DNA from: Sulfurimonas sp. CG01_land_8_20_14_3_00_36_23 | GTDB lineage: Bacteria > Campylobacterota > Campylobacteria > Campylobacterales > Sulfurimonadaceae | Reading direction: 5' to 3' | DNA: 64,000 nucleotides | Assembly (NCBI GenBank): GCA_002781365.1 | Contig: PETN01000017.1 | Span: 1-64,000 of the forward strand | Shown here: positions 7,388 to 25,609 of the stretch, in pieces | How positions within the stretch are numbered: the first letter of the stretch is position 1 | Layout of the letters: each line of letters starts with the position of its first letter | Notes under the pieces: generated by a model | Told to the model about the DNA's origin: nothing | The model's database searches: none | Seen by the model: the letters and a program-made list of their open reading frames with translations, nothing else | Made by a program: the position numbers and the translations under genes

Positions 7388-7406
7388 ACAGAGCAGGGAA
7401 AGAGAT

Positions 7407-8357: not shown

Positions 8358-8371
8358 GTTTAGGCACAAAA

Positions 8372-9001
8372 ATGAAAGTTGTAATATTTGATATGGATGG
8401 CACGCTTTTAGACTCTAAAAAAGATATAACAATATCTGTAAATTATGTTAGAAAAGTAAACTATAACCTTGAACCACTCTCTGAAGACTTTGTGGTTGAA
8501 GCTATCAATATGCCTGTGAGAAATCTTCCAAAACTCTTCTATAATACGGAGACGTATGAGCAGAGTGATAGAGAACTTTTTGAAGTACATTATGAAAAAC
8601 AGTGCATTGTTAGCCCCTATCTTTATGAGGGTGTTTTAGAGACACTGCAAGAGCTTTTGGCATGTGGAATTAAAATCTCTGTGGCTACAAATGCACCCAC
8701 GCAATTTGCTCGTAGAATACTCACACACTTAGCAGTGGCACACATGTTTGATGTAATCATTGGAGCGAGTACGCAAACTATTCCAAAGCCTGACCCTCAA
8801 ATGTTAAATGAGATTTTGGATTATTACAAGTTCGATAGAGCTCTACATAAGGCTTGGATGGTTGGAGATAATTCTAAAGATATGTTGAGTGCACAAAATG
8901 CTGGAATAGAGTCTATGTTCGCAACATGGGGCTTTTCAAAAAATGGCGAACATGAGAAACTTATCCACATGCCAAAAGAGATTTTAGATATTGTTTTATA
9001 A
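8372..9001 (+). CDS. HAD-superfamily hydrolase, phosphoglycolate phosphatase-like
   Basis: A 209-residue cytosolic phosphatase of the Gph/PGP subgroup. It has motif I DMDGTLLDS (residues 7-15, nucleophile Asp7), a four-helix cap (about 20-90), motif II VATNAP, a motif III lysine in IPKPDPQML and motif IV VGDNSKDM. Substrate is not certain: phosphoglycolate is the usual guess for this subgroup, but other sugar phosphates are possible. It begins 14 nt after hemH and is probably in the same operon. The gene holds two copies of the recurring 13-mer. Confidence 0.85.
   Translation: MKVVIFDMDGTLLDSKKDITISVNYVRKVNYNLEPLSEDFVVEAINMPVRNLPKLFYNTETYEQSDRELFEVHYEKQCIVSPYLYEGVLETLQELLACGIKISVATNAPTQFARRILTHLAVAHMFDVIIGASTQTIPKPDPQMLNEILDYYKFDRALHKAWMVGDNSKDMLSAQNAGIESMFATWGFSKNGEHEKLIHMPKEILDIVL
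8657..8669. repeat. Uptake-sequence-like word, perfect 13-mer
   Basis: TTGGCATGTGGAA inside the HAD gene, read as LACG. Confidence 0.9.
8963..8975. repeat. Uptake-sequence-like word, exact (A variant)
   Basis: ATCCACATGCCAA inside the HAD gene, read as IHMPK. The overlapping TTATCCACA also happens to match the DnaA-box consensus. Confidence 0.8.
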
Positions 9002-9049
9002 TATTTTATGATAAAATAGTTTTACCTACAAATCTCTTTGGAGTTTACA

Positions 9050-10297
9050 ATGTATGAGAGTGACTTACTACTTGCCTTTTCCTTTATGGCTCTCCTTTTC
9101 TTAAGACAAATATCTATTTTAAAACAGGCAAATAAAATTAACTACGCTCCACTTATGGTAGGCATAGGTGCCATTAGCAGCATTGTTCATTTTATAATCT
9201 TTCCTGATCAAAAAGAGATTTCTCTGCTACTTCGAGAATCACTTCTCCCTCTTCTTGTCTCACTTTTGCTCTATATTGTTATGAATATACTGCATCAAAC
9301 ACAACAGACACAAAGCTTGAGATCGCAAGATGGTTTTGCACAAGCATTAGCCTCGCAACTTGCAGAGATGAAAGAGTTCATGGGTGGGATAGAGAAGAGA
9401 ATAGCACTCTCACAATATGATGAGTTAAAAGCCAAAGAGGAGATTTTTGAAAAATTCAAGCAAGATATGAAGGCTCTAGAGGGGATAAAAGAGAATCAAA
9501 GTAGATTTTTAGAAAAAATTGATGAGTTTGAAGTGTGGCAGCAGAGTGTTTCTAATGCTTTTTTAGAGTTCTCAACTGTACAACTCCCAGAACTTGATAA
9601 TGTTGTGCATAAACATATTGATATTCTTAGAATAGCAGAACAAGAACACCATAATCAACTCAAAAATATGCTCAATAAAGCGCTTCAAAGTAAGCTAGAG
9701 ACTTTGGATGAGATAGAAGCGTTAAAGGCTCAGTTGAGTGAAATGAGTAGGCTCTCTACAGATATAGCAGACTCTATTACCGAGCATACTCTCGTGAACC
9801 TCTCCGGAGTAACACAATCTTTTTCAAGACAACTACTCTCTTTAAAATCTCAAACAGAGAGTATGGGTACCTCTTTGTCAGAAGATGAAAACAGACTTAT
9901 AGGGATTAGAAATCAAAGCGAAATGATTATGAAGCAGATGATTCTCTCCTCCAAAAAAATGGATGAACTTAAAGAGAAAAATGATAGTTTCTCAACAACA
10001 TATCTAAGTGTTAAAGATTTGCTACATGACATTGAGCTGATTAAGAGTGATTATGTAAAGTCACAAGCTCAGTTGAGTAGTATTGCAAAAGAGATGAAGT
10101 TTTCTGAAGAAGAGCAGATAGAGGCACTTAAAAATCATGTAGAAGTTTTGAGTGAGATGTTAAGTAAGAAGATAGATGACTCTTTAGAAAAACTACATGA
10201 ACATTACCATATTGCCGACTCTGACATCTCTGAGAGTGTGAAAATACTCTCAAAAAAATTGCAAATACAAAAAGGATATACGCAACACGAGAGTTAA
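9050..10297 (+). CDS. Membrane-anchored coiled-coil protein, function unknown
   Basis: I do not recognise a family. I prefer ATG at 9050 over an in-frame TTG at 9038, because TTTGGAG at 9038-9043 is then its ribosome site; this gives 415 residues. Three hydrophobic helices come first (roughly 5-20, 32-52 and 66-85), followed by about 300 residues of charged, heptad-like helix with a short break near 165-185. The layout (short membrane bundle plus long cytoplasmic coiled coil) resembles septum- or flagellum-associated scaffold proteins, but no motif supports a role. It is convergent with the EAL gene, with 18 nt between the stops. Confidence 0.7.
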   Translation: MYESDLLLAFSFMALLFLRQISILKQANKINYAPLMVGIGAISSIVHFIIFPDQKEISLLLRESLLPLLVSLLLYIVMNILHQTQQTQSLRSQDGFAQALASQLAEMKEFMGGIEKRIALSQYDELKAKEEIFEKFKQDMKALEGIKENQSRFLEKIDEFEVWQQSVSNAFLEFSTVQLPELDNVVHKHIDILRIAEQEHHNQLKNMLNKALQSKLETLDEIEALKAQLSEMSRLSTDIADSITEHTLVNLSGVTQSFSRQLLSLKSQTESMGTSLSEDENRLIGIRNQSEMIMKQMILSSKKMDELKEKNDSFSTTYLSVKDLLHDIELIKSDYVKSQAQLSSIAKEMKFSEEEQIEALKNHVEVLSEMLSKKIDDSLEKLHEHYHIADSDISESVKILSKKLQIQKGYTQHES

Positions 10298-10315
10298 AAG
10301 TTACTCTTGATATTC

Positions 10316-11500
10316 CTACTCCGTTACATCCAAACATACAATGTGCGTGATAGAATCAATGCTTACTTTTACAGAGTAGGTTCTACACATATTGCCTGTT
10401 GCTTTAGAGATATATTTACTACTGAGATAATCACCGCTTAGAGAGTCTTTGGCTAGAAGATAGTACCATTTGAGACTATGGTCATGACCCTCTTTCGTAG
10501 GTTTATAAAGAACTTTCTCCTCTGAATGTATAATTGTTTGCCCTACTTGTATCCCATTCTCTTCATTAAGAATATAGACCGCTTCAAGTTTAGCGTGTTC
10601 CAAGACAACGCTGCTTAACATCTGCTCATTCTCAGGATGAGAGCGTTCTAATATAGAGATAACTTTTTGAGATAACTCTTGTAAATTTTTGATGAAGCTC
10701 TCTTTTTTTGTAAGATGCTCTTTCATTGCATATCTATATTTAGCCCCTACATCGAGGATATTTTTTACTATATCCTCTTTAATTGGAGCGGTAATCTCAT
10801 CTTTGGGCTTGCAGAGCCAAAAACCCTGAAAAATATCTATATCTTTTGTCATACAGCTGAGTATTTCATCTCTGCTCTCAACACCTTCTGCTAGGACTAT
10901 GGCTCCTATTTTATGACACATATTAGATATTGCACTCAATATTTCTGAGTGAATAAAGTTGTTGTGAACATCATAAATAAGAGACCTGTCCGCTTTGACA
11001 ATATCGGGTCGAATGAGAGCTAGTCTGTCAAAGCTTGAGTAACCCGTTCCAAAATCATCTACAGCGATAATGAAACCTAAACCTCTATACTTTTGAACAA
11101 ATTTTTGTAAAGAGGAGGTCTCTTTTACGCTATCTTCTTTAATCTCGACAACAATATTAGAGGGGTTGATTTGACTCTTTTGAACAAAATCAATAAAATC
11201 ATTAGAGTTATCATTCTCAATAATAGAAGATTCAAAGTTTAAGAAGAGGAGTAAACTTTTGTCCTCTTTGTAGTAGCTCTTAAACTTTGTAATAGCTAAT
11301 TCTCGGACATAATTATCGAGTCTTGAGGAGAGGTTCTCTTTTTGAGCTTGAGCAAAAAGAAAAAGTGGCATAATGATTCCACCATCTTCATCATAGGCTC
11401 TTGTGAGTGCTTCATACGCTATAATTTTTTGGTCTTTTATAGAGATTATAGGTTGAAAGAAAATTGTAATTTTACTATTTTTGATTAATGTGTTAATCAT
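10316..11500 (-). CDS. EAL-domain cyclic-di-GMP phosphodiesterase
   Basis: A 394-residue protein with an N-terminal EAL domain (about 1-240) and no recognised sensor; the C-terminal 150 residues are unassigned, possibly a GAF-like sensor. Catalytic hallmarks are present: YEALTR (the EAL triplet itself), the acidic VEIKED position, DDFGTGYSSFDRL, KADRSL and LAEGVE, so it is predicted to linearise c-di-GMP to pGpG. It has no transmembrane segment and is probably cytosolic. It lies 108 nt downstream of the GspF-like gene on the same strand, and an apparent -10 in the gap suggests its own promoter. The ATPase of the neighbouring machine has an N-terminal domain of the c-di-GMP-binding MshEN type. 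Confidence 0.9.
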   Translation of the reverse strand: MINTLIKNSKITIFFQPIISIKDQKIIAYEALTRAYDEDGGIIMPLFLFAQAQKENLSSRLDNYVRELAITKFKSYYKEDKSLLLFLNFESSIIENDNSNDFIDFVQKSQINPSNIVVEIKEDSVKETSSLQKFVQKYRGLGFIIAVDDFGTGYSSFDRLALIRPDIVKADRSLIYDVHNNFIHSEILSAISNMCHKIGAIVLAEGVESRDEILSCMTKDIDIFQGFWLCKPKDEITAPIKEDIVKNILDVGAKYRYAMKEHLTKKESFIKNLQELSQKVISILERSHPENEQMLSSVVLEHAKLEAVYILNEENGIQVGQTIIHSEEKVLYKPTKEGHDHSLKWYYLLAKDSLSGDYLSSKYISKATGNMCRTYSVKVSIDSITHIVCLDVTE

Positions 11501-11532
11501 AACTTCTCCATAGAGTGCTTCATTTTTAAGTA

Positions 11533-11538
11533 ATTATA
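11533..11538 (-). promoter_or_regulatory. Candidate -10 element of the EAL gene
   Basis: TATAAT on the minus strand, 32 nt upstream of the EAL start. An inverted repeat AACAA-N3-TTGTT (11554-11566) lies upstream of it, near where a -35 or activator/operator site would be. Confidence 0.4.
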
Positions 11539-11608
11539 ATAAAACAAATAGATAACAATCGTTGTTTTATGTATAAAAACTAAGCACTTTGAAGAAGTAG
11601 TTTAACTT

Positions 11609-12853
11609 TTATCGACCTTGTACAGCATTTCCCATACTCCACATAGGTAAGAAGATACCAAGAGCAAGTAAAATAACCATAGAAGCGATAATAAAGAGCA
11701 TGATAGGCTCAATTGCTTCTGAAAGTCCTGCAATGATTGCATCAAATCGCATTTTGTAGTAATCTGCTACCTTACTAATCATTGTATCAAGCGAACCACT
11801 ATCCTCGCCAGCTGAAATCATCTGTATAATCATGTTTTCAAAGAGTCCAGTGTCTTTTAACCCTTGGTTAAGCGTACCACCTTTTTCAACTGTTGAGCGT
11901 ACTGATAAAAGCTGTGACTTAAGAGGAAGGGAATCAATCATTGCTATGGCAGTATCAAGTGCATCTGCTATTGGGATACCTGCACGAATCAACTCTGCAA
12001 ACACAAGAGTAAAACGGCTAAGAGTGGCAAATTTTATAAGGTTTTTAATCAGATAGGTTTTGAGTAGAAACGCATGCCAAGCATATTTGATATGCCTATA
12101 GTTGTTTATAAGATATTTAAATATCATAAACGAGATAAAGAGGACGGCTAAAACATAAGGACCATAATTGTTAAAGAGATGTTCTAATGTAAGTAAAATT
12201 TGAGTTGGAAGTGGTAAGTCTGCCCCTAACTCTTCAAAAATTGCTTTAAATTGTGGTACAACATAGGAGATAAGGATTGTAAATGCTACTGCCATAGCTA
12301 TCATTACATTTCTTGGGTATGCCATCGCTTTTTTAAACTTAACAACATTCGCTCTAATCTCTTCAAGCATATCTGCTAAGGAGTAGAGAGACTGGTCTAG
12401 ATTACCAGTTTGTTCACCTAATTGAACCATAGCAATGGTTAAGTTACCTAACTCAAATCTAAAGTTCTCCATTGACTTTGATAAAGAGTGACCGGAGTTA
12501 ATATCATCAGCTAATTTTATAAAAACAGTTTTGAGTGCTTGATCATCCGTTGATTTTCCAATTTCTCCAAGCGAGTCATGTATAGAGATACCTGCATTTG
12601 TCATTACTGCGAGTTGTCTTATCGCTGCAATAAGGGAATCTGGTTTAATTTTACTCTTTTTAATATTTTTAAAAAACTCTGTTTTAAATCTTTTGAACTG
12701 AATATCTAGCGGTTCTTCTGCTTCAACAACTTTTATAATGATTCCAGAGTGTTTTAGCCTTGCAAAATTGTTCGCCTCTTTTCTATCATTCGCATAGAGT
12801 GCAATTTCTTCTTTTTTACCTTTTGTTAATAGTGTAACTATAAAATATTTCAT
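11609..12853 (-). CDS. GspF/PilC/MshG-family inner-membrane protein (CtsF-like)
   Basis: The 414-residue platform protein of type II secretion/type IV pilus machines; it couples the ATPase to fibre assembly in the inner membrane. It has the family layout: a short N-terminal cytoplasmic part, two T2SSF repeats (about 70-195 and 275-400), a membrane helix after the first repeat (about 172-200), another near 220-245, and a C-terminal helix (about 380-405). Recognisable stretches are AIRQLAVMTNAGISIHDSL and GEQTGNLDQSLYSLADMLEE, echoed by SAGEDSGSLDTMISKVADYY. Its ATG overlaps the ATPase stop (ATGA). It is last in the machine operon. C. jejuni ctsF follows ctsE in the same way. Confidence 0.9.
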   Translation of the reverse strand: MKYFIVTLLTKGKKEEIALYANDRKEANNFARLKHSGIIIKVVEAEEPLDIQFKRFKTEFFKNIKKSKIKPDSLIAAIRQLAVMTNAGISIHDSLGEIGKSTDDQALKTVFIKLADDINSGHSLSKSMENFRFELGNLTIAMVQLGEQTGNLDQSLYSLADMLEEIRANVVKFKKAMAYPRNVMIAMAVAFTILISYVVPQFKAIFEELGADLPLPTQILLTLEHLFNNYGPYVLAVLFISFMIFKYLINNYRHIKYAWHAFLLKTYLIKNLIKFATLSRFTLVFAELIRAGIPIADALDTAIAMIDSLPLKSQLLSVRSTVEKGGTLNQGLKDTGLFENMIIQMISAGEDSGSLDTMISKVADYYKMRFDAIIAGLSEAIEPIMLFIIASMVILLALGIFLPMWSMGNAVQGR

Positions 12854-14601
12854 CCTTTTGCCACCCTTAATATTTCTTCTATGCTTGTAATACCATCGAG
12901 AGCTTTTTGAATTCCATTTTCATAAATTCCAATGAATCCATCTCTCTTGGCTTGTTCTAACATAGCATCTTTAGAAGCTCCTTTGGCAATAATGGAAGAT
13001 AACTCCTCTGAGATATTTAAGACCTCACATATCATTTCTCTCCCCATGTAGCCGCTTTCATTACACTCTTTACACCCTTTTCCAATGTAAAACTTTGCAT
13101 TTTCAGGGATAAAACTACCTAACTCTTCTATTATAGTAGGTGACAACTTCTCTTCTACCTTACAATGCACGCATATCTTTCGAACCAGTCTTTGCGCCTG
13201 AATAGCTACCAATGCACCACTTATAAGATAGTGTTGTATTCCCATATCTGCCATACGAGGAATAGAACTGATTGCATCATTCGTATGAAGCGTAGAGATC
13301 ACTAAGTGACCAGTAAGAGCAGCTTTTATGGCTATCTCTAAGGTCTCTTGATCTCGAATCTCACCAATCATAATCTTATCTGGATCTTGTCTTAGGATGG
13401 AACGAAGTGCATCTGCAAAACTGAGACCAACTTTAGGATTGACTTGAACTTGTTGAATAAGGTTCATTCTATACTCTACAGGATCTTCTACTGTAATAAC
13501 CTTATCCTCAACATTTCTAAGTTCATTAAGTGCACCATAAAGAGTTGTTGTCTTACCACTACCAGTAGGTCCAGTTACAAGAATAATACCAAAAGGGGCT
13601 TGTAAACCTTTTAGAAGTTTCTGATAATTTGCTGTATCCATACCTGCATCTTCCAATTTTACTAAGGCTTTTTGTTTATCTAAAACACGCATTACAATAG
13701 ATTCACCATATAAAATTGGCAGTGTAGATATCCTAAAATCGTATTCAAGTGCTCCAACTAGTGTTGAAAAACGACCATCTTGAGGCTTTCTTTTTTCTGC
13801 AATATCAAGATTTGCTAAAAGTTTAAGCCTTGATGCTAGTGGAGGGTATATATCTTTTTCAAATATAAACATTTCAGTTAACTTTCCATCAACTCTACCT
13901 CGAACAACGCAGTTCTTTTCTGTTGGTTCGATATGTATATCACTTGCACGACCTTGAATACATGTTTTTAAAACAACATCTATTAAAAGTAAGATAGATG
14001 AAGCCTCTTGTTGCTCCTCTACAGAGTTAATAGAATTGAGTTCATCTCTTATTTTTGCGACTAAATCTTTTACGCTGTTTTTGAGCTCAACTTTAAAGAG
14101 ATAAGACTGAATCTGCTTTTTTGTTGCTACAGCCACTTTAAGTGGTTTTCTTGGAAAGAGCCTCTGCAGAGCTTCTTGAGCATCTATGTTGAGAGGATCA
14201 TTAAAAGCAACAGTTACACTTAATTCATCTTCAGAAATAGGCAGAGCATTAAATTTCTTTAGCTGTGCTAAAGGGGCTCTTTCTGTTAGCTTATAGTCCA
14301 TATCAATAGAGTCCAAGTCAATAAAGAGTAAATTCTCTTCTTGAGATAACTTTTGCAAGACAATGTGCTCTTTGATATAGTCATAATCATCTATGATTGA
14401 GAGTTCATAAACACCAGACCTGATTTGCTGCACTATAAAACGAACAAGCCTATCCATCGTCATAAAACCAGAGAGTGTTATATCTCTCAAAATCAAATCT
14501 GGGCTTATACTTTGTGCTAATAGCCTGTCAACTTGTCTTTGCATAATGGAGCCATTTGCAAGTAAATCCTGTGTAATTCTATCCAAAACAACTCCTACCA
14601 A
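12850..14601 (-). CDS. GspE/PilB/MshE-family assembly ATPase (CtsE-like)
   Basis: The 583-residue hexameric ATPase that powers fibre or secretion assembly at the inner-membrane face. It contains Walker A GPTGSGKTT, the Asp box VEDPVEY, Walker B region IMIGEIRDQETLEIA and the His box GHLVISTLHTNDA. A zinc tetracysteine follows (KICVHC and GCKECN). The N-terminal 60 residues contain two tandem hydrophobic segments centred on Gly17 and Gly45 with the spacing of MshEN repeats, although the consensus RLG is not kept, so c-di-GMP binding is uncertain. It overlaps the preceding gene by 7 nt and the following gene by 4 nt. Confidence 0.93.
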   Translation of the reverse strand: MVGVVLDRITQDLLANGSIMQRQVDRLLAQSISPDLILRDITLSGFMTMDRLVRFIVQQIRSGVYELSIIDDYDYIKEHIVLQKLSQEENLLFIDLDSIDMDYKLTERAPLAQLKKFNALPISEDELSVTVAFNDPLNIDAQEALQRLFPRKPLKVAVATKKQIQSYLFKVELKNSVKDLVAKIRDELNSINSVEEQQEASSILLLIDVVLKTCIQGRASDIHIEPTEKNCVVRGRVDGKLTEMFIFEKDIYPPLASRLKLLANLDIAEKRKPQDGRFSTLVGALEYDFRISTLPILYGESIVMRVLDKQKALVKLEDAGMDTANYQKLLKGLQAPFGIILVTGPTGSGKTTTLYGALNELRNVEDKVITVEDPVEYRMNLIQQVQVNPKVGLSFADALRSILRQDPDKIMIGEIRDQETLEIAIKAALTGHLVISTLHTNDAISSIPRMADMGIQHYLISGALVAIQAQRLVRKICVHCKVEEKLSPTIIEELGSFIPENAKFYIGKGCKECNESGYMGREMICEVLNISEELSSIIAKGASKDAMLEQAKRDGFIGIYENGIQKALDGITSIEEILRVAKG

Positions 14602-15137
14602 TAAACATGTCGCTTAAGAGTTATTGTATCGTAAAACTCTTCTATAACAATTTTGCTAAGCTTATCATCCTTAGTAAGATATAACTTATACGTCAATTTT
14701 TTATCTGTGTCATCTTCAAAAAGATAAAATGCTCTTGATTCATGCTCTCCAAGTTTTGCATAGAGGTCAAATACTTTTGAGAGGACATAGTCTGTGCTTG
14801 GCAAATCTAAAGAAGATAAATTATACCCATCTATCAAGGCGTGATAGAGTAATTTTTTTTGCATTAAAATGACAGCAAAGTAGGCAGAGTTTGCTCTAGC
14901 CTCAGCTGAGAACTTTAGAATTGCGATAGGAATAGATAATCTATCTAAGTAGTCAGAATTTAAGCAGGCAAACGCATATAAAGAGACAAACTCTTCATCA
15001 TTTTTAAATCTGCCAAAATTATTGAAACCAATATCACATACATCTACATATTTCTTATTTTGATAAAGATTAAACATATTTTGTTTTATATCTGCGTATA
15101 AACTAAATGCAATAAATAGGGCAAGTATTATTTTCAT
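14595..15137 (-). CDS. Exported protein of the secretion/transformation locus, function unknown
   Basis: A 180-residue protein with a short signal peptide (MKIILALFIAFSLYAD) and helical, possibly TPR-like content afterwards; no motif is recognised. It sits between the TPR/membrane gene and the ATPase with 4- and 7-nt overlaps, so it is certainly part of the operon. The standard MSHA order (mshN-mshE) has no gene here. In C. jejuni ctsX occupies the position between ctsP and ctsE, so either this gene or the next one upstream (15134-15997) is the positional counterpart. Confidence 0.7.
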   Translation of the reverse strand: MKIILALFIAFSLYADIKQNMFNLYQNKKYVDVCDIGFNNFGRFKNDEEFVSLYAFACLNSDYLDRLSIPIAILKFSAEARANSAYFAVILMQKKLLYHALIDGYNLSSLDLPSTDYVLSKVFDLYAKLGEHESRAFYLFEDDTDKKLTYKLYLTKDDKLSKIVIEEFYDTITLKRHVYW

Positions 15138-15997
15138 TTGAATTTCCCTGATGTAATTTCATCCAATAAAAGCTTTGCCTGATTGGATTGTGAGTGTTCA
15201 ACATATTGCTGGAGTGTCTTTACGGCCATCTCTTTTTTGTTGAGTTTCACAAGTGATTTCGTAAATATAATCCAACTTGCTTCTATATTGTTATTGAGTT
15301 CATTCGTAATTAAAGAGTAGTTATAGGACATATTATATTCTCCTATCTCATAATATTTTTTAGCAACAAAAAGACTCAGAATAGGATTGTTGCTTTTTTT
15401 GAACCTTTTAATAACAGATTGAATATCTTCTCGTGTATTTTGTCTTTTAATCTCAATAGAATCTACTTGAACAGTTTCTTTGATTTTAGTTTTTTCAGGA
15501 GCTTCATTTTTTGAAGTAGCTTGTTTATTAGCTTGATCAGTATTTGTACTTTTTTGCGTTTTTACTTGAGCCTTTTTATCCTCTTCATAGTATGGAAGAG
15601 CATTGTCATGCATACTATTCATAAATTCTAAAGAGGGAGACAAAACAATCTTTTTCTCTTTTAGTTTATTACTCTGAGCAAGATGCTCTTGCTTTAGATA
15701 CATTTGCTCTATAACTTTGTCAATATCCTCAAGAGAGATAGTAGCCAAAGAAAGATTTTTATCTTGCGTTGTATTGAGCTCTTTTGTAGTTGGTTCAACC
15801 TTTTTTTCTAGCACTATGACAGAAGTTTTTTCTTGCTCAGGAACTTGATTATTACTATCTATGTACGAAGAATACTCCAAAATAGTAAGTACTATTATAA
15901 AAATAATCAGTATACTTATAATAATTACAGCATGTGGAATATAGGACTTAATTTTATAATTGAGCCACTTGCTCTCTAGTTCATGTATATTAAGCAT
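15134..15997 (-). CDS. Membrane-anchored TPR-like protein (MshN/CtsX-position)
   Basis: A 287-residue single-pass protein: a short cytoplasmic N-terminus, a membrane helix VIIISILIIFIIVLTIL (about 24-40), a polar linker rich in Lys, Thr and Glu (about 50-190), and a C-terminal helical region (about 195-287) with TPR spacing (LFVAKKYYEIGEYNMSYNYS and WIIFTKSLVKLNKKEMAVKT). MshN of the MSHA pilus has this architecture and the same place after the AAA ATPase gene. Its start overlaps that gene by 8 nt. Role inferred from position and topology only. Confidence 0.7.
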   Translation of the reverse strand: MLNIHELESKWLNYKIKSYIPHAVIIISILIIFIIVLTILEYSSYIDSNNQVPEQEKTSVIVLEKKVEPTTKELNTTQDKNLSLATISLEDIDKVIEQMYLKQEHLAQSNKLKEKKIVLSPSLEFMNSMHDNALPYYEEDKKAQVKTQKSTNTDQANKQATSKNEAPEKTKIKETVQVDSIEIKRQNTREDIQSVIKRFKKSNNPILSLFVAKKYYEIGEYNMSYNYSLITNELNNNIEASWIIFTKSLVKLNKKEMAVKTLQQYVEHSQSNQAKLLLDEITSGKFK

Positions 15998-16799
15998 TGA
16001 TTAAACCTGTGTGTATTGCGGACATTTCAATTATTTTATGAGATACTAGACTTTTATTGATTTTCACTGGGTTGTTCTCTTCATACCATGTGTAAATATC
16101 AAATAGGGAGTATAAAAGTTTATTTGTATCTCTATAATTTCCTTTTGTTATTTTATGAATTAAGTTTACAGACTTATTTTGAAACATATTTGCTGCGTCA
16201 AAACAGTTGGCTTTCATCAATTTTTTTTGTATATATATTTTAAGCTCAGCACTAGACGCATTTTCTAACTCTATACTCTCCCAAATTCTTGTTTGAAAAT
16301 GCTCTTTTGCAATAAGGTCTTCTTTCTCAGTTTTATGTAAAGCGATAACAAACTTTACCTTTCTTGTGTCCGAAAGTAACCTTATCTTCTCCATTAGAGC
16401 AGGGGAATAAAGTTGTGCCTCATCTAATAATACTAATGGAATCTCATCTATGAAGCTTTCATTCATAATTTTCATAAATTGTGTGAAATTTAATTCACCT
16501 TTATATTTTACATTGAGTAAATCTTGAGCAAGCGTTTTAAAAAATTCACTCTCGTCGAGTATTGGAGTATTGTAGAGATGAACCATTTGCAGAGTTGAGA
16601 GATCATGGTATATTTTTGTTAAAAACATACTCTTACCAGTTCCAGGCTTGCCATAAAGAAGTATCATTTTTAGAGGTTTCTTAACAGAGTCTTTAAGTGA
16701 CTGATATATTGTTGAAACTCTATCTAACTGTATGTAATCTTTAGCATTTACAGTATCTAAAAAAACATTTTTCGAGTTTTGAAAGATACTTGACTTCAT
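15990..16799 (-). CDS. ExeA/MshM-type AAA ATPase (CtsP-like)
   Basis: A 269-residue P-loop ATPase with Walker A LYGKPGTGKS (about 45-54) and Walker B LVLLDEAQ (about 117-124), plus a sensor segment VKFVIALHKTE. ExeA/GspA, MshM and C. jejuni CtsP are small ATPases of this type that accompany a secretin and help place or activate it. CtsP is a peripheral inner-membrane NTPase required for transformation. There is no peptidoglycan-binding domain like that of ExeA. It lies 1 nt after the secretin gene, in the order secretin-ATPase-membrane protein shared with both the msh and cts loci. Confidence 0.85.
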   Translation of the reverse strand: MKSSIFQNSKNVFLDTVNAKDYIQLDRVSTIYQSLKDSVKKPLKMILLYGKPGTGKSMFLTKIYHDLSTLQMVHLYNTPILDESEFFKTLAQDLLNVKYKGELNFTQFMKIMNESFIDEIPLVLLDEAQLYSPALMEKIRLLSDTRKVKFVIALHKTEKEDLIAKEHFQTRIWESIELENASSAELKIYIQKKLMKANCFDAANMFQNKSVNLIHKITKGNYRDTNKLLYSLFDIYTWYEENNPVKINKSLVSHKIIEMSAIHTGLINA

Positions 16800-16800
16800 T

Positions 16801-18375
16801 CTACTCTTTCTCTATTTGAAGTTTTTTCATCATATTTGATGCATTATGGTCTAAGATAGCATCCGTTAGCCCTTCATAGCCTAAATCTGATAACGATAAA
16901 CTATCATACTCTTTGTCAATAATATGCGGTTCAATTACGATAACAAGCTCTTGAACTTGCTTTATTTTACTCTCATACTTGAAAAAGTAACTCAATCCAG
17001 GGATGTCTCCTAAAATAGGAACTTTACTAGAGTCAATCATATGTTTAGTGTTAATTAAGCCACCTAGGATAATTCTGTTTCCATCTTTTACAGTTACAAC
17101 AGAAGATAATTGACGACGTGTAAGGTCTGGCGGCATGACTCTTCCTGTTGAACCAGTTGTAATAGTTTGTGCTGTTTCTGAAAGGGATGGATTGATTTTA
17201 AGTGTAATCGTCTTATCATCTGCAATTTCAGGAGTAATATCAAGCAAAACACCTGCAAAAACTGATTTTACTTCATCGTTTTGTGTGGTAGAAGCAACTC
17301 CTCCACCAGAGCCTTGTTGGCTCGTTGATTGTTGAAGCTTATAAAAGTATTCAGTTCCAGCTGTTATGAGTGCTGGTTGATTATTTAGAGTGAGCACTTT
17401 CGGATTAGAGATTGAGCTTACATCGCCTTGCGTTTGTAAAAATTTAATCACTTCATTTAATGAGCCACCACCTTTAATGGTAACAAGATTTGCTACATTT
17501 TTGGCTTGATCACCCACAGTTGTAATCGAAGTATCTGTCCATTCAGTAACATTGTTTTTACTCATATAATCAACAGATAACTGAACATTTTGAAGTGCAT
17601 ATAACTGTTTCCAATCTATACCTGTTGTTTTGCCTTTATCCATAGTGACAGACAACAGTTGAACGTCAATTAGAACTTGCAGTTGAACTTTATTTTGTAA
17701 TTTTTTTAGATAGCCTTCTAATCTTTGCATCTGCTTTATTGTCGCAGTGACTGTTATAAGACCAGCATTCTTATTGATAATTGGAGCTTCAGCCTGATAC
17801 GCATCATTTGGTCGATTGAGAACTCTTCTAAATTCAAGATCCAAATCAGCCCAAAACTGTACTTCATCTGTTGACTCTATTTTCATCCCTGACTGCGCAT
17901 TAGAACCGCTATCACTACTCTGTGTGGATCCACTTGCTGATGAAGTCCCAGCACTCCCTCCACTAGTTGCAGAAGAGGAACTAAGAGTAATATCCGTGCT
18001 CCCAGTTCCTTTTCTTTGTGATAAAATATAGTCAATACCGAAAACTTTTGTACTTAGGTATGAAACTTTCAATAGATTGTTTTCTAACTTATATGATAAG
18101 TTGTTTTCTTTTAAAATAATGTCTAAAACTTCATCTATTGTTAAATTTTTTAAGTGTGTTTTGTTAAGTTTTCTTTCCAAAAACTTTTCGGCATGTGGAT
18201 CTGTGATAATGACACTAAATTCACACTCATCACTTAGTTGTTCTATAAAATCAATAATTTTTGTATCTTTTGTTGAGCTTATACTGAAAAGTTCATAAGA
18301 ACAATCAGCATAACTGCTAGTTGACAATATAACCGCTAAAAGTGTTCCATATATTGAAGGATGTATTAATTTCAT
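16801..18375 (-). CDS. Secretin, MshL/PilQ/GspD family (CtsD-like)
   Basis: The 524-residue outer-membrane multimeric channel. A signal peptide (about 1-23) is followed by a secretin/TonB N-terminal-type domain (about 30-110), a low-complexity Ser/Gly/Thr linker (about 128-165), an N-domain repeat (about 190-260) and the secretin barrel (about 275-505), ending with the signature VPILGDIPGLSYFFKYE. It is short, with few N-domains, like MshL and CtsD and unlike full GspD. No pilotin is evident. In a transformation machine this would be the pore through which double-stranded DNA enters the periplasm. Confidence 0.92.
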   Translation of the reverse strand: MKLIHPSIYGTLLAVILSTSSYADCSYELFSISSTKDTKIIDFIEQLSDECEFSVIITDPHAEKFLERKLNKTHLKNLTIDEVLDIILKENNLSYKLENNLLKVSYLSTKVFGIDYILSQRKGTGSTDITLSSSSATSGGSAGTSSASGSTQSSDSGSNAQSGMKIESTDEVQFWADLDLEFRRVLNRPNDAYQAEAPIINKNAGLITVTATIKQMQRLEGYLKKLQNKVQLQVLIDVQLLSVTMDKGKTTGIDWKQLYALQNVQLSVDYMSKNNVTEWTDTSITTVGDQAKNVANLVTIKGGGSLNEVIKFLQTQGDVSSISNPKVLTLNNQPALITAGTEYFYKLQQSTSQQGSGGGVASTTQNDEVKSVFAGVLLDITPEIADDKTITLKINPSLSETAQTITTGSTGRVMPPDLTRRQLSSVVTVKDGNRIILGGLINTKHMIDSSKVPILGDIPGLSYFFKYESKIKQVQELVIVIEPHIIDKEYDSLSLSDLGYEGLTDAILDHNASNMMKKLQIEKE

Positions 18376-18384
18376 TTGTTATAC

Positions 18385-18855
18385 CTACTTATTTTTAAAT
18401 TTTAGAGTTTGATTCTTACTATTTGTTGATAGTAATATCTTTCTATTGTCTTTTTCTAAGATAACAGAAGTTGAGTGAATGCTTAATATTTTATAACCTT
18501 TTATAAAGTCATTGACCTTATACCATTGACCACCTATTAAAGCAGAACTATTCATAATCGCATCCAAATAGACATTTGGAATAGCACCTTTTGTGATTAT
18601 ATTTGCATCATCTTTTTTTACAGAGCTACCAGAGGATGAAGCAGTTTTGTACGAAGTTGGACGTTTAGTTCTTACTTTTTTAGTTTTTGCATTTAAAAAG
18701 ATAAATGGGCTATCTAATCTGGCAATATTTTTGTCAATAATACCTTTTCTTGGAGTCTTGATGGCTTCTATTTGCTCATCGACCCATGAAAGCTCATTAG
18801 CACCAAGGGAGATAGTGACAAATAAGAAGAAAAGAACATTTGTATAATTTTTCAT
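18385..18855 (-). CDS. Periplasmic PilP/MshK/GspC-like protein (CtsR-position)
   Basis: I start it at ATG 18855, which overlaps the preceding stop by one base (TAATG) and begins a signal peptide (MKNYTNVLFFLFVTISLGA); a longer frame from 18873 would spoil it. The resulting protein has 156 residues. The C-terminal half has the small beta domain of PilP/GspC HR (WYKVNDFIKGYKILSIHSTS, then VILEKDNRKILL) that contacts the secretin N-domains. The gene order PilO-like, this gene, secretin corresponds to mshJ-K-L, and C. jejuni ctsR precedes ctsD. Sequence conservation is low, so family assignment rests on domain pattern plus position. Confidence 0.7.
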   Translation of the reverse strand: MKNYTNVLFFLFVTISLGANELSWVDEQIEAIKTPRKGIIDKNIARLDSPFIFLNAKTKKVRTKRPTSYKTASSSGSSVKKDDANIITKGAIPNVYLDAIMNSSALIGGQWYKVNDFIKGYKILSIHSTSVILEKDNRKILLSTNSKNQTLKFKNK

Positions 18856-19487
18856 TAGTATGTAATCCCCCAAACTGAAATATTTAGATCTGTATTGAGA
18901 CTCTTTTCTGCTTTGATGTTGAGTGCATGTATATCCACAACCAACTCACTCTGTTCAAGTGAATTAATAAACTTAAGCGTATTCTTGAAATCTCCAGTTG
19001 TCTCTAATGTTATGTTAAGTATATGCCCAAAGGACTGATTATTTAAAGCATACTTATTTGTAAAATTTTTAATTTTAATATCATATTTTTTTGCATTTAT
19101 AGATACAGAATGTAGGTACTCACCCCAGCTTCTTTCATCATAAATAAGAGAAGATATTGTTTCGATTTTTGTTTTTATGTATTCATTGTTCTCTTTATGA
19201 GTTTTCATTTCAGCTTCAGCTTTTGATATCTCGTTTTCAAGAGTAATAATTTTACTTTGCGGATTGTATTGTAAATACATCTTATCCGCTTTTATTTTAC
19301 CTGTAAGAGAGACAATTTTTGCATTTTGTTGTTTAAAGTCATTTTCAGAACTATCCCAAAAAAGTAAATAAGAAAATGCGAATATAACACTAAATAGCAT
19401 AACGTATGTCATATATGTATCTTTTTGACTTTTCTCTTTAAAGATTAAGTCAATTTTTTGTAAGTAGTCTTCAATATTTAATTTCAT
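18855..19487 (-). CDS. PilO/GspM/MshJ-like inner-membrane protein
   Basis: A 210-residue bitopic protein: a short cytoplasmic N-terminus, one membrane helix (about 24-44, YVMLFSVIFAFSYLLFW), a coiled coil (about 50-105), then a ferredoxin-like periplasmic domain (FGHILNITLETTGDFKNTLK; final strands LNIKAEKSLNTDLNISVWG). This is the PilO/GspM plan. It follows the GspL-like gene with a 4-nt ATGA overlap. It probably forms the alignment complex linking the inner-membrane platform to the secretin. Confidence 0.75.
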   Translation of the reverse strand: MKLNIEDYLQKIDLIFKEKSQKDTYMTYVMLFSVIFAFSYLLFWDSSENDFKQQNAKIVSLTGKIKADKMYLQYNPQSKIITLENEISKAEAEMKTHKENNEYIKTKIETISSLIYDERSWGEYLHSVSINAKKYDIKIKNFTNKYALNNQSFGHILNITLETTGDFKNTLKFINSLEQSELVVDIHALNIKAEKSLNTDLNISVWGITY

Positions 19488-21019
19488 AATATTCTCACTT
19501 TTAACTCAGCAAAGTATTTTTTATTCGCTTCTTTATAAGAAATCTCTTCTAAAGAAAAATGAAATTTACCCCCATAAATTTTTGTTAGATACTCTATCAT
19601 TTGAGTTATTTTTTTATCATTAGATGATACAAGGTTGAGCTTAAAGTTTTTTGTACTATTGTCTTCAAAATATGACAAATCACTAACATTAACATTATAC
19701 TTATTTAAATCCTTTGTTAAGAGAGCTAAAAGTTTAGATTTCATTGGATAATCAATTTTAACTTCATGAATTTTAATGAGAGTAGCTTTCTTCTCGTTGT
19801 AATTTTGTTGTTCTTTTGCTAGAAGAGCTAAAGTTTTTTCTTTGTCAGCTTCTCTATTCTTTATTGTAGCTTCGCGAGTCGTCTTTACAGTATGCAGTTC
19901 AGTATACTCTCCCTGTAAAAGTTCATATTGCAAAGTCTGTGCATAAGTAAGCGCCCAATACGTCACAGGGTAAATAAATGCGATAAGTAGTGATGCAACA
20001 GCAAGTAGAATAAGCTTGCCACTCTCTCTATGTTGAAACTTTGCTGGTCTAGGGAAAGTTGTGAAGTTACACTCATACCTTTCATTACTAGGTAATGTTG
20101 TATATACATGCATAAGCGCATGAATTTGATCTATGTAAGTACCTTCACCTTCAAAGCCATAATCAAATGCAAAATCACTACTTTTAATACTTAGTTCAAC
20201 TTCAGCCATCTCGTCAAGTTTTGTGACCGTATAGACTTGTGAACCAATATATAAATGTTCTATTCTTTCTATTTCAAACGCTCTCTTAACGAAAGTTAGA
20301 ATGTCATTTATATTTGCGAATATCTCTTTGTAAAGTTTTATTATATGTTCTTTATATTCACTCTTTGTATCTTTTAGATTTTCATTAGTTAAAAAATCTA
20401 AAAAATCTTCATACTCTATTCTCTCACCATAAAGTTCGCAAAATCTTTCGTGCATTTGTAGGAAAGAATATTTAATGGATTTTGTATAAACAAACTCTTT
20501 TTCATTGTAAAATGTAACAAAAGTATCATTTTCTTGAAAGTATACATAGCAGTGCACACCGCTATTTTGTACAATTTCTTTGGAGTAGAGTGACTTGAGT
20601 AATAGCGGTAATGGAACAATTATATCTATGTACTTTATACTATTAACTACATTTTTAAATGTTTCACTTATGATAAATGGATCAACTATAAAAACTTGAA
20701 AATGTCTATTGTCTTCATCAAGGTTATTAAATGTTTCAATATACTGTACTTGATAGCTGACTGCTTGATCTAATCCTAAATCATCATATATTTTATTATT
20801 GATTGCATCAAATAAATCTTCTTCGGGGATATTCTTTGTAATTTCTAGTTGGCTTGTGATAAAATCATTTGTATTTAAATATGAGATTACAAACTGATTT
20901 TTTATGTATTCAGGGGAGGTTGTCTCAGTTAAAAAACTAGACATACCGCTTAAATATGTATTTTTATAAGGGTTTGCCGAAACTACACTTGAGAAAGAGT
21001 GCTGATTTTCTTTATTCAT
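19484..21019 (-). CDS. GspL-like PilM-PilN fusion (MshI-like) inner-membrane protein
   Basis: A 511-residue protein with a cytoplasmic N-terminal region (about 1-330) that looks like a divergent actin-fold PilM/GspL domain (FDYGFEGEGTY near its end), one membrane helix (about 344-365, LLAVASLLIAFIYPVTYWAL), a coiled coil (about 370-420) and a PilN-like ferredoxin fold (about 430-511). In GspL these parts are one chain, in type IV pili two. This would dock the assembly ATPase to the inner-membrane ring. It is the first machine gene, 10 nt after csd4 on the same strand. Confidence 0.75.
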   Translation of the reverse strand: MNKENQHSFSSVVSANPYKNTYLSGMSSFLTETTSPEYIKNQFVISYLNTNDFITSQLEITKNIPEEDLFDAINNKIYDDLGLDQAVSYQVQYIETFNNLDEDNRHFQVFIVDPFIISETFKNVVNSIKYIDIIVPLPLLLKSLYSKEIVQNSGVHCYVYFQENDTFVTFYNEKEFVYTKSIKYSFLQMHERFCELYGERIEYEDFLDFLTNENLKDTKSEYKEHIIKLYKEIFANINDILTFVKRAFEIERIEHLYIGSQVYTVTKLDEMAEVELSIKSSDFAFDYGFEGEGTYIDQIHALMHVYTTLPSNERYECNFTTFPRPAKFQHRESGKLILLAVASLLIAFIYPVTYWALTYAQTLQYELLQGEYTELHTVKTTREATIKNREADKEKTLALLAKEQQNYNEKKATLIKIHEVKIDYPMKSKLLALLTKDLNKYNVNVSDLSYFEDNSTKNFKLNLVSSNDKKITQMIEYLTKIYGGKFHFSLEEISYKEANKKYFAELKVRIL

Positions 21020-21029
21020 CTTTTACAAC

Positions 21030-22337
21030 CTATTTAAAATGAACCATTGACATGGAGCAAAATTCATCATTTTTATAAAATTCTATTCTATAGATACGAT
21101 TACTTTTATCTACAGAAAATTTTTTGTTTAGTGAATCAAGGGATACTTTCAATCCACTCTCATCTTTGGTCTTCATAGAAGTAAATCCTATCACATTCAC
21201 TCGAAAGTCTTGGCCTTCCAATATGATAAAATCGTCAGTTACAAAAAAATCTGAAACAGCACTGATAGTAGACAGAGTTCCGTCAATATTAACATCAATG
21301 TTTTTTGGACATCCCTCAGCAATTTTAAAGTACTGTGGACGCAATGTTGTTACATGCTGATTGCCTATATAAGCAAGATATATACCATTATCCTTATTTA
21401 TACTTCCAAGTGGATGAGAAAACTTAAACTCATTCCTATTTGATTCTATCGGAATATAGCTTAAAGATTTTTTTATATCAGTGAAATCCAATACAATGTT
21501 ATTATTGATAGTAAGGCTTCCATACTCTTGTATAAGGTGCCCCAGCTCTTTTATATCTAATGCGAAGTCTCTGGTATATGATATTTGCATTACATTCATA
21601 AACTCTTCTATAGCAAGAAGTTGATAAAAAACTTTTTCACTGAGTGAAGATAAATTTTTACTGCTCTCTATAGCAAAGGCCGGTTTGTTATTGGTAACTG
21701 CATAATATGTTAAAGAGAGACGCATATCTTCATCTTCAAATTTTGTATTTGTATTTTTAACATCAAAGCTATGGTGCTTTTGTAAAAGTTTTTTATTCAT
21801 ATTCGTTTTTACAGTTGAAGCTATTGTGTTTAAATCACCAAATGGCTGAAGTTGCTTTAGCTTTACTTGGTCGATGACACATGTTTGTCCCCATGAATTT
21901 GGATTAAAAATGTTTCCTTGATTTTCTTTTCGGTAAAAGCCATGTCCATCATGTAGGTTGAGCACTAAAGATACATTTTTAGAAAGAATTATCTCTTTAA
22001 TCTCTTTTATTATCAGGGCATCTTTATCTGCTTCTTTTATGAAAGAAAACTTTCTATTCATATCCCCGTTCAAGCCCCTTGTGTCTGCTTGTATACTTTT
22101 TGTATTAAGATTTGGAACAATCCATAAGTTCTTGTTAGTAATTTTGTAGTGAGAAGCTAATATAGATGCTGCAAAATAACCTCCTGACTCATCTCCGTGT
22201 ATTCCAGCTATAACCAGAAGTGTTGTGTTTGAATCAGGGTTTTCTTTTTTTATTAACTGAACAGTAGCCGTTGCTTGGGTGCATATTAGTATAAGAAAAA
22301 AAATATATTTAAAATAAATTAAATTCATAGGCGACAT
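21030..22337 (-). CDS. csd4: Peptidoglycan DL-carboxypeptidase, Csd4/Pgp1 family
   Basis: Zinc metallopeptidase (M14-like, M99) that trims muropeptide tripeptides to dipeptides in the periplasm and is needed for helical or curved cell shape in Helicobacter (Csd4) and Campylobacter (Pgp1). A signal peptide precedes ATATVQ; the zinc-site motif GIHGDES lies near residues 44-50, the second His region is LNLHDGHGF (about 125-133), and FAIESSKNLS carries a likely catalytic Glu. The length of 435 matches the family. H. pylori Csd4 has Gln at the first zinc position whereas His is present here, which is the more usual carboxypeptidase ligand. It starts 1 nt after csd6. Confidence 0.85.
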   Translation of the reverse strand: MSPMNLIYFKYIFFLILICTQATATVQLIKKENPDSNTTLLVIAGIHGDESGGYFAASILASHYKITNKNLWIVPNLNTKSIQADTRGLNGDMNRKFSFIKEADKDALIIKEIKEIILSKNVSLVLNLHDGHGFYRKENQGNIFNPNSWGQTCVIDQVKLKQLQPFGDLNTIASTVKTNMNKKLLQKHHSFDVKNTNTKFEDEDMRLSLTYYAVTNNKPAFAIESSKNLSSLSEKVFYQLLAIEEFMNVMQISYTRDFALDIKELGHLIQEYGSLTINNNIVLDFTDIKKSLSYIPIESNRNEFKFSHPLGSINKDNGIYLAYIGNQHVTTLRPQYFKIAEGCPKNIDVNIDGTLSTISAVSDFFVTDDFIILEGQDFRVNVIGFTSMKTKDESGLKVSLDSLNKKFSVDKSNRIYRIEFYKNDEFCSMSMVHFK

Positions 22338-22338
22338 T

Positions 22339-23298
22339 TTATTTTTCTGTAAATATTTTTATTTGATTTTTTTCACCAAGTTTAAGCATTAAAGTCTTTT
22401 CCCCAGTAAATTGAAAACTCTCCGATGAATATATCTCTTTAAAAGTTAATTGGTAGATATTTTCTGTATTTGGATATGGAACTAGATTGATGTCATTAAA
22501 AATAATTGTTTTTTTCTCAAGTTTATTAAAGACTCTTTTTTTATATGTTTTAAAATCATTGAATTTCATTCCATCTGTTCTAACAAAGTCATCAGAATAA
22601 AAACCTAAATATTTATCTATATCATTATAAATCCAAGAGTATCTCCAGAGGTATAATTGAGACAAAATAGAAGTTACTACATCTTTAGGAACATCTTTGT
22701 GTACTGGTGCACTGTTGATAATTAATAATGTTTTTTTAATATCTATTTTTTTATCTAAGTACTCTATATTTTGATTGTTAATTGCTATACAACCTTTTGT
22801 AAATTCATCTCTTTCTTGTTCAGTTGGAAGCCCACGAATCCATATTCCTGAACCATTTTTCCCTCTATATCTGTCATATATATTTGGATAGGATGTAACA
22901 AAGGCTAAAGGGCCATAGAAGGAGTCTGGATTAGAAATTTTTTCAGTTAGGGTATAGATTCCTATGGGTGTTTTTAAATCTCCCTCTTTTGTCTTATCCC
23001 CTTTCTCTTTTCCTGTAAAGGCACTATAGTTTTGTTCAAACTTATAGGTAGAATTTTTGTCTTTAGTGTATAGGTTTAAAGTGGAGCGTTCTTTATCACA
23101 AGTGAGAACTTCTGAGTAGGATTCAAGGTATCCAAAAGTTGTTTTTTTGTCTTTTAGAAATTCACTCCAATACTCTTTCTTTGTAAGTTCCAAGTCCATT
23201 TTTTTTTCTATAGAATCAAAGCCGTTATTTCTATACTCAGTCAGTAAAGAGTTCGCATAAATAGAAACAGTTAAAAACAGTAATAGAAGAAGCTTCAT
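22339..23298 (-). CDS. csd6: LD-carboxypeptidase-like YkuD protein, Csd6/Pgp2 family
   Basis: A 319-residue exported protein (signal peptide about 1-16) with a YkuD domain (about 55-200) and a C-terminal NTF2-like domain (about 210-319), the architecture of Csd6 and Pgp2, which trim tetrapeptides to tripeptides for cell-shape control. The nucleophile motif KGCIAIN (Cys170) is intact. However, the conserved catalytic His before it appears as Arg155 in GIWIRGLP, where the family pattern is IHG. The codon is CGT where a His codon would be CAT. Activity may therefore be lost or altered. It overlaps era by 4 nt and precedes csd4. Confidence 0.85.
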   Translation of the reverse strand: MKLLLLLFLTVSIYANSLLTEYRNNGFDSIEKKMDLELTKKEYWSEFLKDKKTTFGYLESYSEVLTCDKERSTLNLYTKDKNSTYKFEQNYSAFTGKEKGDKTKEGDLKTPIGIYTLTEKISNPDSFYGPLAFVTSYPNIYDRYRGKNGSGIWIRGLPTEQERDEFTKGCIAINNQNIEYLDKKIDIKKTLLIINSAPVHKDVPKDVVTSILSQLYLWRYSWIYNDIDKYLGFYSDDFVRTDGMKFNDFKTYKKRVFNKLEKKTIIFNDINLVPYPNTENIYQLTFKEIYSSESFQFTGEKTLMLKLGEKNQIKIFTEK

Positions 23299-24173
23299 GA
23301 TTTATATCCTATCTCTTCTAGGAATGACTTGTCCTTTGACCACCCTTTTTTAACACTGACTTGCAAGTTTAAATATGTTTTTTTCCCGCTAAGTGTTTCT
23401 ATCTTAAGTCTCGCGTATTGTCCAATACGTTTGATGGCTTCTCCACCTTTGCCAATGATAATCCCTTTTTGAGACTCTTTTTCAATAATTATTGTTGCAT
23501 GAATTTTGTCTAAATTGTCCTCTTCTTTTATAGAATCAATAAGAACGTCGGATTCATAAGGGATTTCATCACTAATATTTTCAAAAATCGCTTCTCTTAT
23601 AAATCCTGCATAGATATCACGCACAAGTTCACTGGTTAAATCTTCTGGATCATAAAGAAAAGGAGAATCAGGAAGGTTCTGAGAAATTACTTTTAATAAA
23701 TCAGCGTGTCCAACTTTTTTTGGTATTGCTACAGGAATAAGCGCTTCAAAATGCTCCGCATAAGGAGAATAAGCATCAATCTTTTTGAAGAGTTTATCTT
23801 GTGAGACTTGGTCTATTTTGCTAAGAACTATGATATGTTTCACTTTATTGTCATTCAATTTTAGAAATTTTTCATAGTGCTCAAGGTTGTCAGTGACAGG
23901 TGCTAAATAAACAATCAAATCGCAATCACCCATAGCTTTAAGAGCTTCATCAAGCATAAATTGGTTTAATATTTTTTCTCTTTCATGGAGACCTGGAGTA
24001 TCTACAAAAATAATTTGAGTATCTTCATGCATTACAATAGCATTAGACCTTTTTCTTGTAGCATTAGCTTTCTGGCTAACCATAGCTATCTTTTCACCTA
24101 AGAGTGAGTTCATTAATGTGCTTTTTCCTGCATTTGGACGTCCAATAAGAGATACGAAACCAGCTTTAGTCAT
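23295..24173 (-). CDS. era: GTPase Era
   Basis: A 292-residue ribosome-assembly GTPase that binds the 3' end of 16S rRNA and helps mature the small subunit. It has G1 GRPNAGKST (residues 11-19), the switch II segment DTPGLHE, G4 LSKID and a C-terminal KH domain with GIIIGKGGEAIKRIG. The length is normal. The gene begins about 107 nt downstream of hslU, the only sizeable gap in this part of the minus-strand block, and two small hairpins lie in that gap. Confidence 0.95.
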   Translation of the reverse strand: MTKAGFVSLIGRPNAGKSTLMNSLLGEKIAMVSQKANATRKRSNAIVMHEDTQIIFVDTPGLHEREKILNQFMLDEALKAMGDCDLIVYLAPVTDNLEHYEKFLKLNDNKVKHIIVLSKIDQVSQDKLFKKIDAYSPYAEHFEALIPVAIPKKVGHADLLKVISQNLPDSPFLYDPEDLTSELVRDIYAGFIREAIFENISDEIPYESDVLIDSIKEEDNLDKIHATIIIEKESQKGIIIGKGGEAIKRIGQYARLKIETLSGKKTYLNLQVSVKKGWSKDKSFLEEIGYKS

Positions 24174-24198
24174 ATTTATTTACCCTTTAAAATTTATA

Positions 24199-24233
24199 AT
24201 GCCACAAAGGGCATCTACTCTCCACTGGGGAGA
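24199..24233 (-). terminator. Two small hairpins between hslU and era
   Basis: TCTCC/GGAGA (24219-24233) and ATGCC/GGCAT (24199-24214) are adjacent stems followed on the minus strand by an AT-rich run. They could attenuate hslU transcription. The stems are only 5 bp each, so this is weak. Confidence 0.35.
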
Positions 24234-24280
24234 ATCTAAGAATAGCGTTGTTGCAATAGTAATCTTTTTTTGCATTATAA

Positions 24281-25609
24281 CTATAAAATGTATCTTGATA
24301 AATCGTCATTTTCAACAATCGTATCTAATTTTTCATGCACAAGTTCAGAGCTAATTATAAACTCTTCTCCATTATGCTCATCAGCTTCAAAGCTAATATG
24401 TTCAAGAACTTTTTCAAGAACTGTATGGAGCCGTCTTGCACCAATATCCTCTGTTATCTCATTTGCACGATGCGCAAGTTTGGCAATTGCTTTAATAGCT
24501 TCATCTTCAAAAGTTACTTTTAAACCTTCAACACTTAAGAGTGCTTCATATTGCTTCAGTAGTGAGTTTTCTGTTTGTGTTAAGATTTTATAGAGGGTCT
24601 CTTCTGTTAAAGACTCTAATTCAACTCTTAAAGGAAATCTTCCCTGAAGTTCAGGGATTAAATCACTCGGTTTTGTTAAATGAAATGCACCTGCAGCTAT
24701 AAAAAGAATATGGTCCGTGTTTACAACACCATATTTTGTTGTGACACTGCTCCCCTCTACAATAGGGAGGAGGTCTCTTTGTACTCCTTCTTTGCTTGGG
24801 TCATTTCTTCCTTGTGATTTTGCACTGATAGCGATTTTGTCAATCTCATCAATAAAAATAATTCCGCCATCTTCTGTACGTTTTAGCGCTTCATTATGAA
24901 TCGTTGTCATATCAAGAAGTTTTGATAAAGCCTCTAGTTTTAAGAGCTCTTTGGCATCCTTGACACTCACCTCTTTTTTATTATCTTCGTTATTCATTGT
25001 TGTGAATATTTTAGAAAATGATTCTTGAACTTTTGCCATTTCAGGTGGAAGATTCGTGTCATTAAACTCAATATGAATTTTATCAATAGAGAGTTCAATT
25101 ATTTTATTATCCATTTCCCCACTGTTGACTTTATCTTCCATGCTACTAAGAAGTTTATGATAATCCTCTTTTTTAGACTCACTTGCACTCTCTGGAAGAG
25201 GAGGGAGTAACTTTTCAACTATTTTATTAAGAACATAGTTTTCAATTTTACTTTTGTTCGCTTCTTCTTGTTCAGCTTTAACAATAGATATAGCATTTAC
25301 AACTAAATCACGAATCATTGACTCAACATCACGACCAACAAAACCAACCTCTGTATATTTACTCGCTTCAACTTTAATAAAAGGAACTTTCATCATTTTA
25401 GCAAGTCGTCTGGATATCTCTGTTTTACCAATACCCGTAGAGCCTATCATCAAAATATTTTTTGGCATAATCTCATTTTGAAGTTCTTGGCTGAGTTGCA
25501 TTCTTCTATATCTTGTTCTAAGTGCAAGCGCAATTGTTCTTTTAGCATCTTTTTGAGAGATAACATATCTGTCTAAATACGTAACAATCTCTTTTGGAGT
25601 TAAGTTCAT
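24281..25609 (-). CDS. hslU: ATP-dependent protease ATPase subunit HslU
   Basis: A 442-residue AAA+ unfoldase that feeds proteins into HslV. It shows the N-terminal [20 protein letters not shown], Walker [10 protein letters not shown] (about 56-64), the pore loop in [13 protein letters not shown], an I-domain (about 110-240), Walker [13 protein letters not shown] and the C-terminal tail DDLSRYIL, whose last residues insert between HslV subunits. Its ATG overlaps the hslV stop by 4 nt, as expected for a coupled stoichiometric pair. Confidence 0.96.

Follow-up and report, generated by a model that had tools for sequence, protein, structure and literature searches.

A nine-gene MSHA-type pilus machine homologous to the Campylobacter jejuni Cts system, and a dispersed candidate uptake word, in Sulfurimonas

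Nine ORFs on the minus strand at positions 11609-21019 of the window, by which we mean the whole 64,000-nucleotide stretch of Sulfurimonas DNA analysed here, make up a type IVa pilus assembly machine of the MSHA type. A sequence-only reading of this DNA had listed the nine genes with their order and coordinates, all of which were recovered, the domain matches being in agreement (Table 1); transcription runs in the order I-J-R-D-P-X-S-E-F, which would fit the Vibrio order mshI-J-K-L-M-N-E-G given in the literature, a comparison made at the level of gene order. The same reading held that nearly all junctions overlap by 1-8 nt, a statement that needs amending: six of the eight do overlap (4, 19, 8, 4, 7 and 4 nt), one of them by 19 nt, and the other two are gaps of 9 and 1 nt, while a start at an internal ATG of the PilP-like gene would shorten the longest overlap to 1 nt. 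Since the Csd4-like gene ends 10 nt from gene I and the YafK-like and Era genes overlap by 4 nt, the transcript may begin further upstream and take in Csd4-YafK-Era. The Csd4-like and YafK-like genes (21030-23298) encode peptidoglycan enzymes that are kept directly upstream of the machine across Sulfurimonas and that possibly open the wall for it or else set cell shape; the YafK-type profile NF040599 matches at 5e-11, under its cut-off. Directly downstream (10316-11500) lies an EAL-domain-like gene with no counterpart in the other Sulfurimonas machine loci compared.

Table 1. Features of the window, with position, strand and the evidence for each
Feature	Position	Strand	Evidence
I: MshI/GspL-like PilM-PilN fusion, 511 aa	19484..21019	-	AlphaFold model and Foldseek
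J: MshJ/PilO-like inner-membrane protein, 210 aa	18855..19487	-	Pfam PilO 1.1e-5, above cut-off
R: MshK/PilP-like, CtsR homologue, 162 aa (TTG) or 156 aa (ATG)	18385..18873	-	profile match to CtsR-position gene of the C. jejuni group, E 5e-8
D: MshL-type secretin, CtsD homologue, 524 aa	16801..18375	-	TIGR02519 263.7 bits (cut-off 250.2)
P: MshM/ExeA-like AAA ATPase, CtsP homologue, 269 aa	15990..16799	-	AAA_22 1.6e-10
X: MshN/CtsX-like membrane protein, TPR-like C-terminus, 287 aa	15134..15997	-	profile match to CtsX homologue, E 2e-17
S: small exported protein, 180 aa	14595..15137	-	alignment with invariant C34 and C58
E: MshE/CtsE extension ATPase with MshEN domain, 583 aa	12850..14601	-	T2SSE 4.2e-128, MshEN 1.8e-15
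F: MshG/CtsF platform protein, 414 aa	11609..12853	-	T2SSF 2.6e-51; E 1e-55 to CtsF homologue
Csd4-like carboxypeptidase, YafK-like protein and Era	21030..24173	-	upstream neighbours; Peptidase_M99 4e-61
GGCATGTGGA, putative uptake word, 24 dispersed copies	3807..56782	both	about 0.06 copies expected in the window
Inverted pair of TTGGCATGTGGAA, terminator-like	40099..40125		directly after an ORF stop; folds at -19.4 kcal/mol, z -7.4

The identity of gene I was settled by structure rather than by sequence search, for it has no Pfam match and a PDB sequence search with its alignment came back empty; in the model (pLDDT 82.9) an actin-like PilM domain is joined to a long helix, of which the membrane segment (TM-like, residues 331-358) forms part, and the C-terminal portion is PilN-like; the model's top Foldseek match is PilM (5eou, E 7.5e-14), with the GspL cytoplasmic domain also matched. 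A PDB sequence search with the PilO-like alignment of J returned mostly coiled coils and one non-significant PilO, and in R the CdsD_C (6e-4) and T2SSB (0.016) domains both lie under cut-off. The secretin D matches Pfam Secretin (5.1e-45) and carries a secretin N-terminal domain as well; in the ATPase P the Walker A residues G50, G53, G55 and K56 and the Walker B residues D126 and E127 are invariant among 11 sequences including the CtsP homologue; X has one TM-like helix. Gene S, which is kept in several Campylobacterota families and is missing from the C. jejuni-group locus, yields a confident model (pLDDT 90.7) whose nearest folds are TPR-like, none of them a PDB match at E<=0.001. By eye, the c-di-GMP motif in the MshEN domain of E looks degenerate.

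GspE, GspF, GspD and GspL-like parts are common to pilus machines and to type II secretion, so that the nine genes might be taken for another type II system secreting proteins, an interpretation that we reject as very improbable. The genome already holds a complete system of that kind, with its own pseudopilins and the same GspD, E, F and L architecture, at a separate locus on contig 44; the window proteins fall short of the type II equivalog cut-offs (GspD 153.9 against 351 bits, GspE 509 against 630, GspF 267 against 424), whereas the MshL equivalog is passed; and the window secretin, which like the platform protein is nearer to Cts, aligns over 187 aa only with the type II secretin and over 493 aa with its Cts counterpart.

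The same gene order with the same upstream genes, Era-YafK-Csd4-I-J-R-D-P-X-S-E-F, recurs in nearly all complete Sulfurimonas loci (51 loci), and the arrangement is therefore not a product of chance. Further afield, the MshL profile is matched in 224 of 249 Campylobacterota genomes; most of those listed as lacking a match come from a single genus (f14/g28, which is probably Helicobacter), and in an Arcobacteraceae-like family (f9) the match is weak. Many families of the phylum retain Era-I-J-R-D-P-X-(S)-E-F, and the locus of the C. jejuni group is down to R-D-P-X-E-F. To these remaining genes our profile HMMs match with E-values of 9e-109 for D, 1e-141 for E and 7e-20 for P, besides those for F, X and R in Table 1, and pairwise identity is 31% for D (493 aa aligned), 43-44% for E (501 aa aligned), 30% for P and 29% for F. 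In the genome compared most closely (G260), whose assignment to C. jejuni is itself deduced from these sizes, the P, X and E proteins measure 202, 195 and 519 aa, the sizes published for CtsP, CtsX and CtsE, and D and R come within two residues of theirs (PMC8308473). Because R-D-P-X-E-F survives there in order and with the published Cts sizes, the Sulfurimonas machine is homologous to Cts, and the fuller of the two. The sequence-only reading had matched its genes, from the PilP-like one onward, to ctsR-D-P-X-E-F; profile searches and synteny bear this out for R, D, P, X, E and F, with the correction that the C. jejuni cts genes do not include the small exported protein. The Cts locus also differs in having neither the PilM-N fusion nor the PilO-like gene, and PilT, present in two copies in every sampled Sulfurimonas, is listed for none of the C. 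jejuni-group genomes; the simplest reading of these comparisons suggests that Cts came about by reduction of an MSHA-type machine, with loss of the PilM-N fusion, the PilO-like gene and PilT. Mutation of ctsD or comEC impairs both DNA uptake and transformation in C. jejuni, where DNA is selected by the methylated RAATTY motif (PMC10046745), whereas the Sulfurimonas candidate is a sequence word.

Elsewhere in the genome lie the further parts that a pilus, or competence, would call for. Ten prepilin-like N-termini were found, including two tandem pilins beside priA and near comEC, and three MSHA-like minor-pilin genes adjoin a gene for a 1372-aa Calx-beta/DUF6701 (MshQ-like) protein; two PilT proteins and a ComEA-like frame of 88 aa (C8:27632) all score above cut-off, ComEC is encoded at C1:67258 and occurs in 78 of 79 good Sulfurimonas genomes, and no type IV pilus extension ATPase other than E was seen in the genome except that of the type II system. 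The MSHA-pilus feature set of pilins, MshQ-like protein and PilT is thus present, at other loci, and would by assignment serve the machine. Vibrio MSHA shares with the Sulfurimonas system the MshL equivalog, the MshEN domain and an MshQ-like protein; Sulfurimonas differs in that a small exported gene is added between those in the N and E positions and in having its pilin genes elsewhere.

These shared traits bring in a reading by which the pilus, like that of Vibrio, has attachment to surfaces and sensing as its only tasks, with DNA uptake absent or achieved by other means. The MSHA of V. cholerae is indeed a retractable attachment pilus (PMC7096442), and the MshL equivalog, the MshEN domain, the MshQ-like DUF6701 protein, the minor pilins, the two PilT proteins and the adjoining EAL-domain gene all agree with such a role; against its being the only one, C. 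jejuni takes up DNA with a reduced form of the same machine, nearly every Sulfurimonas genome has ComEC, and no other pilus extension ATPase was seen beyond the type II one, and we consider an exclusively adhesive pilus unlikely. As one function among others, attachment is a different matter, since the two PilT proteins, the MSHA-like minor pilins and the MshQ-like protein support it equally well, and it is compatible with DNA import. Hence the label of natural-transformation apparatus, which the locus had been given, draws support from Cts homology and synteny, ComEC, ComEA, PilT, the pilins and the enriched word, but its exclusivity does not stand.

The idea of self-recognition through a sequence word also came from the sequence-only reading, and the word behind it is real: beyond its excess in the window (Table 1), GGCATGTGGA has 887 copies genome-wide, 424 and 463 on the two strands (strand bias p 0.20). 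A sample of 324 kb contains 117 copies, with the consensus tTTGGCATGTGGAAaTt; 96 of them lie inside ORFs, 44 in sense and 52 in antisense orientation, another 21 are intergenic against 8.6 expected (p 1e-4), and close inverted pairs number four, all intergenic, against 0.32 expected (p 2.5e-4). The word has a non-palindromic core of 10-13 bases with AT-rich flanks and sits mostly within genes; a 33/37 split on a contig of mostly positive GC skew argues that it has no replichore polarity. Around the machine (8976-29904) it is scarce, with 1 copy in 21 kb where about 7.7 would be expected, a scarcity that is not general, since the machine locus L100 (17.6 kb) holds 6 copies.

Neisseria reads its DUS through the receptor ComP, and the predicted receptor for the Pasteurellaceae USS is ComN. 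With the Neisseria DUS and the Haemophilus USS the Sulfurimonas word shares hundreds of short non-palindromic copies on both strands, intergenic inverted pairs and a lineage-specific spread, inverted pairs at terminators being among the traits described for DUS and USS (PMC3630211, PMC12616744); it differs from them in sequence and in phylum. Uptake words are on record from the Pasteurellaceae and the Neisseriaceae (PMC7811141, PMC12616744); no paper tying one to Sulfurimonas was found in the open-licence literature.

Among 135 Sulfurimonas species, eleven have 260-1302 copies of the word, eight have 31-183, and the remainder are at or near background, while the consensus is the same in distant word-bearing species; a 12-mer search of 24 congeners had pointed to a word confined to this species, an impression that the full search of the genus overturned. 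On the nine-protein tree the typed word-bearing loci form two clades with the identical word, requiring two changes, which two gains or one gain followed by loss would fit alike. As the machine is present in all Sulfurimonas examined and the word is abundant in two clades, the machine is the older and wider of the two; and as most species have the machine without the word, the former does not by itself predict the latter, so that the notion of the word as a property of the machine fails. Nor was a pilin or any other gene found to track with the word among those compared: pilin charge and cluster make-up do not divide word-bearing from word-free species, and none of the pilins of this genome is strikingly basic. 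A suggestive case is G096 (141 copies of an eroded word), where residues 1-165 are missing from ComEC and the truncated gene (L234 7356-8120), which adjoins unrelated genes, lies within a contig of 158 kb, while its cousin G095 has a full ComEC and 1302 copies; the truncation may be linked to the erosion, as a single event in one MAG, and G061 and G137 have low word counts yet intact ComEC. G149, the sister of G096 and likewise with an eroded word, was set aside as a second natural experiment: its whole locus is missing, priA and pilins included, and the absence of ComEC is therefore probably an assembly gap.

The patchy distribution bears on a reading of the word as a recombination (Chi-like), segregation, regulatory or structural motif unconnected with the machine. 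That no receptor was found, that most congeners have the same machine without the word, and that other Sulfurimonas have other enriched words, palindromes included, would all suit it; the 10-13-base non-palindromic core with AT-rich flanks, the location of most copies in genes and the intergenic inverted pairs in the manner of DUS and USS speak against it, and the form that likens the word to Chi or KOPS was dropped for want of strand or replichore polarity. We regard such a motif as rather doubtful, and lean, with confidence a little better than even, towards TTGGCATGTGGAA being a genuine DNA uptake signal read by the MSHA/Cts-type pilus.

Taken together, the evidence is best explained (at a probability of roughly 0.6) by a retractable MSHA-type pilus that also imports DNA and, in this lineage, probably favours DNA bearing the word. 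In such a machine GspE (MshE) would power extension via the GspF platform, with the PilM-N, PilO-like and PilP-like proteins forming the alignment ring; the pilus would exit through the MshL secretin, aided by the AAA and TPR proteins, and would be retracted by the PilT ATPases encoded elsewhere. From the role of Cts in C. jejuni we infer that bound DNA would be drawn in through the secretin on retraction and then imported by ComEA and ComEC; DNA with TTGGCATGTGGAA may be favoured in this clade by some part of the pilus, a minor pilin being the likeliest, and the word is proposed to have accumulated because of that preference. If TTGGCATGTGGAA does act in this way, sequence-specific DNA uptake would have arisen independently in Campylobacterota, a phylum whose known case uses methylation, and an uptake word on a Cts-homologous machine in this phylum would let two strategies of self-recognition be compared on one apparatus.

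Other words are enriched elsewhere in the genus. In G007 (L018, L052-L055) the non-palindromic CTCACGCA, possibly a different uptake-like word, occurs 36 times in 70 kb against 1.9 expected, and in G011 (L021, L043-L047) and G006 (L017, L048-L051) the palindrome TACATGTA (TTACATGTAA or CTACATGTAG) is strongly enriched, in a manner that recalls HIP1-like palindromes.
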